34,577 bases of DNA from Paracoccaceae bacterium (GTDB taxonomy: Bacteria; Pseudomonadota; Alphaproteobacteria; Rhodobacterales; Rhodobacteraceae), in contig JAHDDY010000033.1 in NCBI GenBank assembly GCA_020629115.1, forward strand, positions 1 through 34,577, read 5' to 3'. A program made the position numbers and the translations under genes. The notes under the pieces are model-generated. The model searched no databases and had not been told where the DNA came from. It saw nothing but the letters and a program-made list of their open reading frames with translations. Numbering within the stretch: the stretch's first letter is position 1; every line of letters starts with the position of its first letter. Of the stretch, positions 1-2,501 are shown one piece after another.

Positions 1-57
1 GAATTCCTACAGGTGATCAGCCCGTGGGAGCGGGAGCATTTGTTGTTGAATGTTTGA
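1..57 (+). CDS. Possible 3' end of an upstream gene, truncated by the window edge
   Basis: Reading from base 1 in frame 1 gives 18 codons (EFLQVISPWEREHLLLNV) ending in TGA at 55-57. The first ~42 bases are GC-rich like the rest of the chromosome, while everything after is AT-rich, so this may be the end of a resident or mobile-element gene at the edge of the AT-rich islet. The ISPWEREH stretch loosely recalls the SP-x-x-x-EHI pattern near the C-terminus of Tn3-family transposases. That is a weak resemblance, and the call may be chance. Confidence 0.22.
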   Translation, partial: EFLQVISPWEREHLLLNV

Positions 58-111: not shown

Positions 112-1611
112 ATGAGTGCGGCAAGCAAAGAGCTGGCAGTAGAAAGTGGTATAAAGTCACTTCCTGCTTTCGATGAGCATATTTGTGCGATAAATTTGCG
201 TGCAAATACCAATAATCCAACTGATGGCTATGGTGTCGGTATTTCGGCTTATTTCGGAAGCGAAAGAGTTAATTTAAAAATTGGTGATGAGGAGATTAGC
301 TTCAAATTTGAAATTTATAAAGCTGAATTAACAATAGATGCAGTAAACTGTGAAATTGATGCCACTTTCACTCCCAAATTTGATATAGAAGAGCCTTTTC
401 CGCCCGAGTCTTTAGATGAAGTAGATAGTAGGGAGGTGAAAACAAGGTGGAAAGTTAGTTCAGGAAGTTTAATACAAAATGTAGCTAATATAGATTATGA
501 GCGAAGCACTGAAGGATTAGCTCCTAAAAAAATTGAATCTTGGTACCAGATACACAGATTGAATGATCGAACTTTGCAGATCGCAAGTTTAGGAAAGAAT
601 TCTAAACCACTAAACGGTAAAATAATATCAGAATATGTTGGATGGTATGTATTGCCTAAGCTCAACAGTGACTCAGGTATCTTGGCTAAAGTAAGAGTTC
701 GTGAAGATTGGATAAAGCTAGTAGATCCTATTCCTTTGGATCATGATGGACCAATCTGGGAACAAATATATCGTTTTCTTAGGAAGGGTTCTAACGAATC
801 TAGAGCCAGGCGTGAAGCATTCAATATTCTTTTAACACATCTTGTTGAGATTGGCCTTCAAGCTAATAGCAATTCAAAAGAAGCTACTCTCGATGTGGAT
901 GCTATTGTGGTACGACCAGCTGATGATCTCATATACAAGATAGAATCCAGCAAAGTAGACTCCCCACCGCTTTCAATTAGTGTTTCAGAAATAACATATT
1001 TTTTGCAATCAGCACCTGGCTCTGAAAGAGCAATTCTTGAAGAAATTGGTGTTCCGAAGCAAAGACTGTTGGAGTATTCAGAAGCTCTTGCGATAAATAC
1101 TGGTCCACCAGAAACTAAAAGATTAAGTAATAGAAGTGCATATCAAATTTATGATGATCTAAGTGCTGATCAAATCAACATAAAGACTGTGAAGGAGTGG
1201 TTAATTAGGGTGATTCAAAACCAGCGATATGATGGGTTTCTTCCCTTGACAGAATTTGGACACCATGCGCGACTTCAGTTCCAAAATCAAAGGTCCATTC
1301 CCAGAGAGCTTGGTTTCGCAAAGTATTCTGATATGATTGATGCAATAGCTGGAGTTGATATAGTCGAAAAAAATAGTGTTCCTGGAGTGGTAATTGATAT
1401 CGAATTTTTTGTTCGCGAAAAAGTTTACGAAATAATAAAAATGAATGATGATAATATCAGTTTAGCTTACTTAGGTGTAAAGTGCTCCCAAATTTTTCCT
1501 GGAAAAGGAAAAGTGCACAGACGTCTTGGATACAAAACACTTACTGATATGATTTCTTCATTTGGGCTAAATATAAGTGGAGCGGCTCCTAAATATACTG
1601 TCAGTATATAA
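112..1611 (+). CDS. AT-rich islet protein with two C-terminal LOTUS/OST-HTH-like domains
   Basis: This is a 499-residue protein of unknown function. Residues 1-~350 match no family I recognise; the first ~130 look beta-rich, with alternating hydrophobic strands. Residues ~359-434 and ~435-499 each read like a LOTUS/OST-HTH winged-helix RNA-binding domain. The first has DGFLPLTEFG, then an aromatic-containing linker, then LGFAKYSDMIDAI. The second has ISLAYLG, then FPG, then LGYKTLTDMI. LOTUS domains bind RNA (G-rich RNA in some studied cases) and in bacteria often accompany NYN nucleases, but no NYN domain is visible here. The start is ATG 112, preceded by GAGAG at 101-105. Codon use and base composition are strongly AT-rich, unlike every other large gene here, which points to recent transfer. 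No partner gene is visible, and the left edge of the window may hide one. The LOTUS call is by eye. Confidence 0.8.
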   Translation: MSAASKELAVESGIKSLPAFDEHICAINLRANTNNPTDGYGVGISAYFGSERVNLKIGDEEISFKFEIYKAELTIDAVNCEIDATFTPKFDIEEPFPPESLDEVDSREVKTRWKVSSGSLIQNVANIDYERSTEGLAPKKIESWYQIHRLNDRTLQIASLGKNSKPLNGKIISEYVGWYVLPKLNSDSGILAKVRVREDWIKLVDPIPLDHDGPIWEQIYRFLRKGSNESRARREAFNILLTHLVEIGLQANSNSKEATLDVDAIVVRPADDLIYKIESSKVDSPPLSISVSEITYFLQSAPGSERAILEEIGVPKQRLLEYSEALAINTGPPETKRLSNRSAYQIYDDLSADQINIKTVKEWLIRVIQNQRYDGFLPLTEFGHHARLQFQNQRSIPRELGFAKYSDMIDAIAGVDIVEKNSVPGVVIDIEFFVREKVYEIIKMNDDNISLAYLGVKCSQIFPGKGKVHRRLGYKTLTDMISSFGLNISGAAPKYTVSI

Positions 1612-1624
1612 GTTAAAATTATAA

Positions 1625-1645
1625 GACTGATTTAAGTAATCAGTC
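1625..1645. terminator. Stem-loop terminator between convergent genes
   Basis: GACTGATT (1625-1632) and AATCAGTC (1638-1645) form a perfect 8-bp stem with a 5-nt loop, just after the islet gene. It overlaps the TGA stop of the converging 3-hydroxybutyrate dehydrogenase (1646-1644). It has no long T tract, so it is probably a bidirectional terminator. The hairpin also marks the point where AT-rich DNA gives way to GC-rich DNA. Confidence 0.5.
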
Positions 1646-2432
1646 ACAAAGCCGTCCACCCCCCATCCACCGAAATCGTCGTCCCCGTGATCTGGACCGC
1701 CGCGTCGGAGCACAGGAACGCCGTCGTCTCGCCGATCTGCTCGACGGTGGCGAATTCGCGGGTGGGGGTGCGGGTGAGCATGACCTTGTCGATCACCTCG
1801 TCCTTGGTCATGTCGTTGGCGCGCATCTGGTCCGCCAGTTGCGCCTCCACCAGCGGCGTCCAGACGTAGCCGGGGCAGACCGCGTTGCAGGTCACGTCCA
1901 CCCGCGCCTCGGCCGCCTCCAATGCCACGACCTTCGACAGGCCGACCACCCCGTGCTTGGCCGCGACGTAGGCGCTTTTATACGGCGAGGCGGTCAGGCC
2001 GTGGGCGGATGCGATGTTGACGATGCGCCCGTGCCCGCGCGCCTTCATCCCGGCCATGGCGGCGCGGGTGGTGTGGAAGGCGGAGGAGAGGTTGATGGCG
2101 AGGATGGCGTCCCACTTGCCGGTGGGGAAGTCCTCGATCTTCTCGACATGCTGGATGCCCGCGTTGTTGACGAGGATGTCGACCCGCCCGAAGGCGGCCT
2201 CGGCCTCCTCGACGAGCCGCGCGCAGGCCTCGCCCTTCGACATGTCGGCCCCGATGTAGCGCACGTCCGCGCCCGTCTCCTTGGCCAGGTCGGCGGCGAT
2301 GGCGCGGGACTCGTCGGAATGGGTGTGGTCGTTCAGCACGACCGAGGCCCCCTTGCCCGCCAGCACCCGGGCGATGCCGAGGCCGATGCCGCTGGTCGAG
2401 CCGGTGACGATGGCGATCTTTCCGTCGAGCAT
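1644..2432 (-). CDS. bdhA: 3-hydroxybutyrate dehydrogenase (SDR family)
   Basis: This NAD-dependent short-chain dehydrogenase oxidises D-3-hydroxybutyrate to acetoacetate in cytosolic ketone-body and polyhydroxybutyrate metabolism. It has the TGSTSGIG nucleotide-binding motif (residues 10-17), NNAG near 89-92, catalytic S142-Y155-K159 (SAYVAAK), and the bacterial HBDH-type C-terminus ending in ISVDGGWTAL. At 262 residues it has the usual family length. The ATG at 2432 is preferred to the in-frame ATG at 2450 because AGGA lies at good spacing before 2432. It lies 69 nt downstream of the AlaX gene on the same strand and may be read as the tail of that operon. BdhA is clearer than a generic SDR because the C-terminal half follows the HBDH pattern closely. 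Confidence 0.9.
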   Translation of the reverse strand: MLDGKIAIVTGSTSGIGLGIARVLAGKGASVVLNDHTHSDESRAIAADLAKETGADVRYIGADMSKGEACARLVEEAEAAFGRVDILVNNAGIQHVEKIEDFPTGKWDAILAINLSSAFHTTRAAMAGMKARGHGRIVNIASAHGLTASPYKSAYVAAKHGVVGLSKVVALEAAEARVDVTCNAVCPGYVWTPLVEAQLADQMRANDMTKDEVIDKVMLTRTPTREFATVEQIGETTAFLCSDAAVQITGTTISVDGGWTAL

Positions 2433-2501
2433 GGGGGCGGTCCTTTTCATGACAGAGCGTTTTTCCCAATCATAGTGTGCCGCACAATCGCGGCCATGCG
2501 A

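Follow-up and report, generated by a model that had tools for sequence, protein, structure and literature searches.

What is a lone AT-rich gene, ending in a pair of LOTUS domains, doing in a GC-rich contig of an alphaproteobacterium, and does it belong to the host, to a mobile element or to a system of defence against invaders? The window, that is, the whole stretch of 34,577 nucleotides that was analysed, is the entire contig C298, one of 304 that make up a 4.3-Mb draft assembly, and the left flank of the gene is therefore just 111 bases long. The GC content of the gene is 0.371 (GC3 0.258) versus 0.694 for the remaining window, in which no 1-kb stretch falls below about 0.60. All four segments of the gene that were examined, the tail included, are low (GC 0.33–0.40). 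The 499-residue reading frame and its AT-rich character in a GC-rich chromosome, both noted in an initial sequence-only reading of this DNA, are present as described. The features of the locus are collected in Table 1.

Table 1. Features at the left end of the window.
Feature	Position	Strand	Basis
Upstream host gene, 3' end, truncated at the contig edge; probably of the glutamine synthetase family	1..57	+	Weak DNA matches
Family gene, 499-aa protein P0001	112..1611	+	Open reading frame with ATG start, translation; GC 0.371
Conserved N-terminal domain, residues ~1–325	112..1086	+	Alignment to family members; no Pfam match
First OST-HTH/LOTUS domain, residues 357–420	1180..1371	+	PF12872, 25.6 bits alone
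Second OST-HTH/LOTUS domain, residues ~434–486	1411..1569	+	PF12872, 18.1 bits alone; aligns with the first
Downstream host gene, 3-hydroxybutyrate dehydrogenase type	1644..2450	-	Three plasmid matches annotated so

Some of the weak matches of bases 1–57 fall inside annotated glutamine synthetase family genes. The best DNA match of the window start is to Pseudorhodobacter, which makes Rhodobacteraceae the probable family of the host. The dehydrogenase gene on the other side is convergent with the AT-rich gene, from which it is separated by 32 bases, and it has long matches in 11 of the 13 other congeners. No glutamine synthetase tail was recognised in up to 1.5 kb of the congener flanks of this gene, so that the gene order of the window is not the usual one in the genus. 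Read by eye, the remaining genes of the window appear to serve metabolism and transport, and none was seen that looks mobile or defence-related. A search of the same genome with the relaxase of a mobilizable element that carries a relative (L141, below) gave no match, a weak negative. Composition and patchy distribution are the two signs of mobile cargo that the window copy itself displays. A terminator-like hairpin of eight pairs with a T-rich tail lies on the minus strand at 1625–1645, after the dehydrogenase gene and in an AT-rich stretch.

The C-terminus of P0001 was compared with the Pfam OST-HTH/LOTUS model (PF12872; curated cut-off 23.8 bits). The whole protein scores 33.2 bits (E-value=4.7e-8) over two stretches, the best being residues 357–420. 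Scanned by itself the first domain is over the cut-off; the second is below it (E-value=0.0024), and PF12872 is the sole Pfam match in that segment. The two halves align with one another (24% identity over 54 aa, two-sequence E-value=4e-4), and each contains, by eye, a Ghxph motif, GFAKY at residues 401–405 and GYKTL at 473–477. This motif, located in the insert between helix 2 and helix 3, is defining for OST-HTH/LOTUS according to PMC2848206. The tandem LOTUS domains proposed from the sequence are accordingly present at the C-terminus, one above and one below the Pfam threshold. A single-sequence AlphaFold2 model of residues 335–499 had a pLDDT of 38, and the tail gave no match of note among PDB sequences. 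LOTUS domains, familiar chiefly from the germ granules of animals, have been reported elsewhere to recognise structured or G-rich RNA. By analogy, the pair in P0001 would recognise RNA of this kind.

The gene had been described as an orphan, wrongly, since its N-terminal ~325 residues define a protein family. Nine relatives were found: six intact and two broken copies in genomes of the same bacterial family, and one on plasmid pRt932 of Rhizobium tumorigenes (P0002; residues 8–282, 26.7% identity, tblastn E-value=9e-17). P0001 shows 40% identity over 332 aa to P0007 and 24–31% to the six other intact members. A two-row profile placed a member in 7 of 393 other genomes of the bacterial family; an eight-row profile found one in 4 of 291 other genomes of the order, three of them known already and one new, and in none of 356 others in the class sample. 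P0001 as query matched nothing in 60 related genomes or in 384 genomes of the class, nor did a two-row full-length profile in a phylum sample of 397 genomes (own genome excluded from all three counts). The family gene was found in none of the 13 other congeners, some of which are incomplete. Plasmid searches yielded no family match besides the Rhizobium plasmid. Phage records had no match to P0001 or P0007, and viral contigs none with P0001, alignment A1 or alignment A2; five stretches of viral contigs that fitted a motif pattern are all unrelated to the family. The genome contig collection held no relative by alignment A1, and none of the 104 stretches that fitted the motif pattern there looked like a relative in its translated surroundings (by eye), from which it follows that the family is rare in this collection or the motif too strict. 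P0008 and P0011 were compared with PDB sequences and gave nothing of note.

Two of the eight copies in other genomes of the bacterial family are broken, one by a stop codon (L146:9387-11060) and the other across two frames (L154:4755-6574). Such copies would be expected of a gene that is moved by chance and decays, selfish or non-functional, without a selected role. The seven other intact genes, however, are open at only 24–40% identity to P0001, a divergence that we take to require prolonged selection on the protein, and we regard simple drift as improbable. At a third locus (L147:10756-11593) there is a 420-bp perfect tandem duplication that includes the 3' end of the family gene and is either recent or an assembly artefact.

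The similarity within the family is confined largely to the front of the protein. Alignments of P0001 with the seven other intact members end at residues 272–338, and the mean pairwise identity of the intact members drops at residue 325 from 25% to 15%, the latter being taken as near the level of a forced alignment. When the tails are compared by themselves, P0009, P0010 and P0012 prove related (E-values=1.6e-26, 1.5e-6 and 0.001); no other pair of tails is similar at an E-value of 0.001. The C-termini of these three proteins are HTH-like, with Pfam scores that in every case miss the cut-off, and the tail of P0010 found nothing of note among PDB sequences. The tails of P0002, P0007, P0008 and P0011 are unclassified, with no Pfam domain above cut-off. 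Exchange of the tail is not equally sharp throughout, because full-length similarity crosses the boundary in two pairs, P0007–P0012 (to residue 409) and P0002–P0012 (to residue 432). Among the eight intact members only P0001 has a Pfam LOTUS match, and for this reason a role in RNA recognition is not transferable from P0001 to the family.

That restriction bears on the possibility that P0001 is a host accessory of RNA processing or RNA decay, recruited through LOTUS as NYN-LOTUS proteins are thought to be. LOTUS is certainly common in this bacterial family, with a match in 51 of 90 genomes drawn from it (own genome included). Twenty LOTUS loci were inspected (L164–L183), and all 20 hold an open reading frame of 230–365 aa with LIDADN near its start, a segment that we take to be NYN/LabA-like, and a LOTUS-like end. 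The first choice of reading frame at these loci required a D-x-x-N motif; when frames were chosen by their LOTUS-like end instead, LIDADN was found at 19 of 19 loci, and L165, which this choice missed, has LIDADN in its frame from the first choice. One of the local NYN-like/LOTUS proteins matches the solved structures 2kpm and 2kzv, of which 2kpm is the LOTUS structure named in PMC2848206. A profile of the local NYN-LOTUS tails scored 9.0 bits against the first domain of P0001 and 3.5 bits against the second (separate segments). The only PF12872 match in the genome of the window is at 112–1611; it thus has no second LOTUS match although NYN-like/LOTUS proteins are widespread in its bacterial family. 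P0001 matches no NYN or other nuclease and has a foreign composition, the gene was not found in the 13 other congeners searched, some of them incomplete, and Pfam recognises LOTUS in none of the seven other intact members; a host accessory role is given little credence here.

The N-terminal domain itself was screened in several ways. Residues ~1–325 gave no match to Pfam, NCBIfam, PADLOC or PHROGs, and the whole protein gave nothing against NCBIfam, PADLOC, PHROGs or PDB sequences. At E-values up to 10, Pfam returned OST-HTH only for P0001, with no NYN/DUF88, other nuclease or S1 domain; the impression that this N-terminus is not NYN and resembles nothing recognised is borne out. The N-terminal part of the eight intact members has no Pfam match above threshold, a sub-threshold match of P0007 to PAS_7 (E-value=0.22) having been recorded. 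This domain family has no model in Pfam. The positions conserved in seven or more of the eight members are D21, N34, G169, G177, G189, R197, W200, Q250 and P269, in a screen limited to polar, glycine, proline, tyrosine and tryptophan residues, and no known catalytic pattern was found among the conserved positions of the alignment. A single-sequence structure model of residues 1–330 had a pLDDT of 33, and a profile of the N-terminal alignment made one chance-level match to PDB sequences (E-value=0.87). A variable Gly/Ser/Ala-rich stretch in this part was considered as a membrane-inserting beta hairpin and found unsupported: in a comparison of hydrophobic moments with shuffled sequences none of the eight members reached p 0.05, the lowest value being 0.092.

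Several relatives lie on mobile DNA. Loci L141 and L143, from two genera, carry apparently the same tRNA-Arg-linked element (L141:7352-11138, L143:8291-12216). They have in common a 47-bp att-like stretch (97.9% identity), which in L141 is the 3' end of tRNA-Arg(CCT) and at which no tRNA was called in L143, a relaxase gene (91.4% over 1562 bp; Pfam MobA/VirD2 in L141) and a putative higBA region recognised by eye (91.2% over 626 bp). No relative of the L141 relaxase was found in the viral contigs. In each locus the interval between relaxase and higBA holds a single open reading frame of at least 90 aa, the family member. The two family proteins are only 25% identical over 333 aa and their genes are oppositely oriented relative to the relaxase. 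Because such diverged, oppositely oriented genes sit between flanks of ~91% identity, the interval behaves as a cargo slot, and it is a place to look for more such genes. L145 is, by eye, a prophage-like region. L146, L147 and L154 have in common a stretch of ~1.7–1.9 kb, essentially the gene alone, at 80–90% identity; their surroundings differ, and transposase-like reading frames lie close by (by eye). At L142 the family gene stands alone amid carbon-metabolism genes (by eye), as does the window copy among its own metabolic neighbours. The homologs are therefore not core genes devoid of mobility. With its foreign composition, its occurrence in 7 of 393 other genomes of the bacterial family and the mobile context of several relatives, the gene at 112–1611 looks horizontally acquired, a well supported conclusion that agrees with the original view of it as a transferred gene.

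These contexts also admit the main rival to a role in defence, namely that the family consists of regulators or maintenance factors of mobile elements, such as DNA-binding repressors or entry-exclusion proteins, with tails that bind element DNA or RNA and an N-terminus that oligomerises. The HTH-like ends of three relatives (sub-threshold in Pfam), the location of two relatives in the relaxase–higBA slot of a mobilizable element and that of one in a prophage-like region would all suit such proteins. The window copy and L142, however, lie beside metabolic-looking genes where no element was recognised, and the close copies at L146, L147 and L154 have little but the gene in common. Slot proteins of 25% identity in opposite orientation, within flanks of 91% identity, fit cargo better. 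A regulatory or maintenance function is on this evidence somewhat unlikely.

The neighbourhoods of the relatives were then considered for defence genes. A hand-picked set of 10 neighbours came from five of the eight loci (L141, L143, L144, L145 and L147), and defence genes were present at four of these five. The neighbours at L141 include MzaC, MzaD and MzaE, together with a C5-methyltransferase motif pair; at L143 there is a phosphorylase-superfamily effector, at L145 FRG/PDC-S15, and at L147 PDC-S46 and nSTAND3/PDC-S73, while the neighbours picked at L144 include no defence gene. When 91 neighbour proteins from the eight loci were pooled and scanned, 88 PADLOC models were matched (E-values up to 1e-10), a result that covers all eight loci together and not each locus, versus five models (mad3, mad2, a CARF model and two viperin models) for 121 control proteins taken from eight other regions of the same contigs, which were not matched for mobile DNA. 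The neighbour set contains only open reading frames of at least 150 aa that do not overlap the family gene, and frames were picked longest-first, so that some are spurious in relative and control sets alike. Of the 25 models listed out of the 88, 17 describe methyltransferases and were each matched by a single member, probably the same protein throughout, and the contrast of 88 with five is therefore real but inflated. Defence genes gather on mobile DNA regardless of the function of a neighbour. The evidence that P0001 is a defence component is circumstantial: known defence genes lie at four of five relatives' loci, but the two genes adjacent to the window copy look metabolic.

On the Rhizobium plasmid the family gene is preceded by a DndB-like DGQHR protein, protein P0003 and a D12 adenine methylase (L002:3949-7874). 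A plasmid of Zymomonas carries a comparable trio (L005:4484-8146), with DUF4433 and macro-domain genes about 2 kb further on. P0003 matched no PADLOC model at E-values up to 1. Since the trio is found in Zymomonas, yet only the Rhizobium plasmid matches the family, a DndB-like/methylase operon of this kind need not include the family gene. A large protein, P0006, adjoins the Rhizobium family gene and has relatives on two other plasmids (L007:7947-10256 and L008:5635-8004); by eye it contains an E-x-K stretch resembling PD-(D/E)XK nucleases.

Our preferred reading, held tentatively and at a little under even chances, is that the gene is single-gene mobile cargo with an anti-invader function, in which a constant N-terminal module is joined to an exchangeable recognition tail. 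The constant part would be the module of ~325 residues and the exchangeable part a C-terminal module for nucleic-acid recognition. In P0001 the tail would sense, the N-terminal module would carry out or relay the response, and the invader targeted would be a phage or a plasmid. Recognition of RNA, this division between a sensing and an acting half and protection against invaders are inferred. Conflict systems commonly swap their recognition part while the core stays constant, and this, the nucleic-acid-binding type of the recognisable tails and the defence genes among several neighbours are the grounds for the anti-invader reading. A narrower version, according to which the family consists of undescribed single-protein immune receptors with swappable nucleic-acid-recognition tails and P0001 detects invader RNA via its LOTUS pair, is unlikely. 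A bacterial protein in which LOTUS is joined to a different, unclassified domain, within a family that differs in its tails and is often accompanied by defence genes, would offer a prokaryotic context where LOTUS might serve to sense invaders.

In the open-licence literature no paper was found that links a LOTUS domain with phage defense, nor any description of LOTUS joined to this N-terminal family or of the family with differing tails; OST-HTH is absent from the main text of PMC3710099. The closest known proteins are the bacterial NYN (LK-nuclease, DUF88/LabA-like) proteins, which carry a C-terminal OST-HTH/LOTUS domain, single or duplicated, and as of 2010 bacterial LOTUS was almost always joined to an NYN-type nuclease (both according to PMC2848206). 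P0001 resembles them in its C-terminal LOTUS. It differs from them in its larger, unclassified N-terminus without an NYN match and in LOTUS domains that match theirs weakly; by joining LOTUS to an unclassified, non-NYN domain it departs from the standard bacterial architecture. Modules of OST-HTH with S1 occur as effectors in TERNS3 conflict systems, as reported in PMC8195603. They too place LOTUS in a prokaryotic conflict setting, but P0001 has no S1 match. Mza, PDC-S15 (FRG), PDC-S46 and PDC-S73 are found at loci in common with relatives, each at the locus of one relative only. Unlike these systems, neither P0001 (E-values up to 10) nor P0002 (E-values up to 1) matches a PADLOC-DB 2.0.0 model, in scans that covered these two members. 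Polymorphic toxins combine a constant N-terminus with variable C-terminal modules. The family is like them in having a common N-terminus and differing C-terminal modules, and unlike them in that no toxin or export domain was matched in Pfam and the recognised tails look nucleic-acid binding. Placed among these systems, P0001 can be counted as a mobile modular protein with an unclassified core domain and a probable association with defence.
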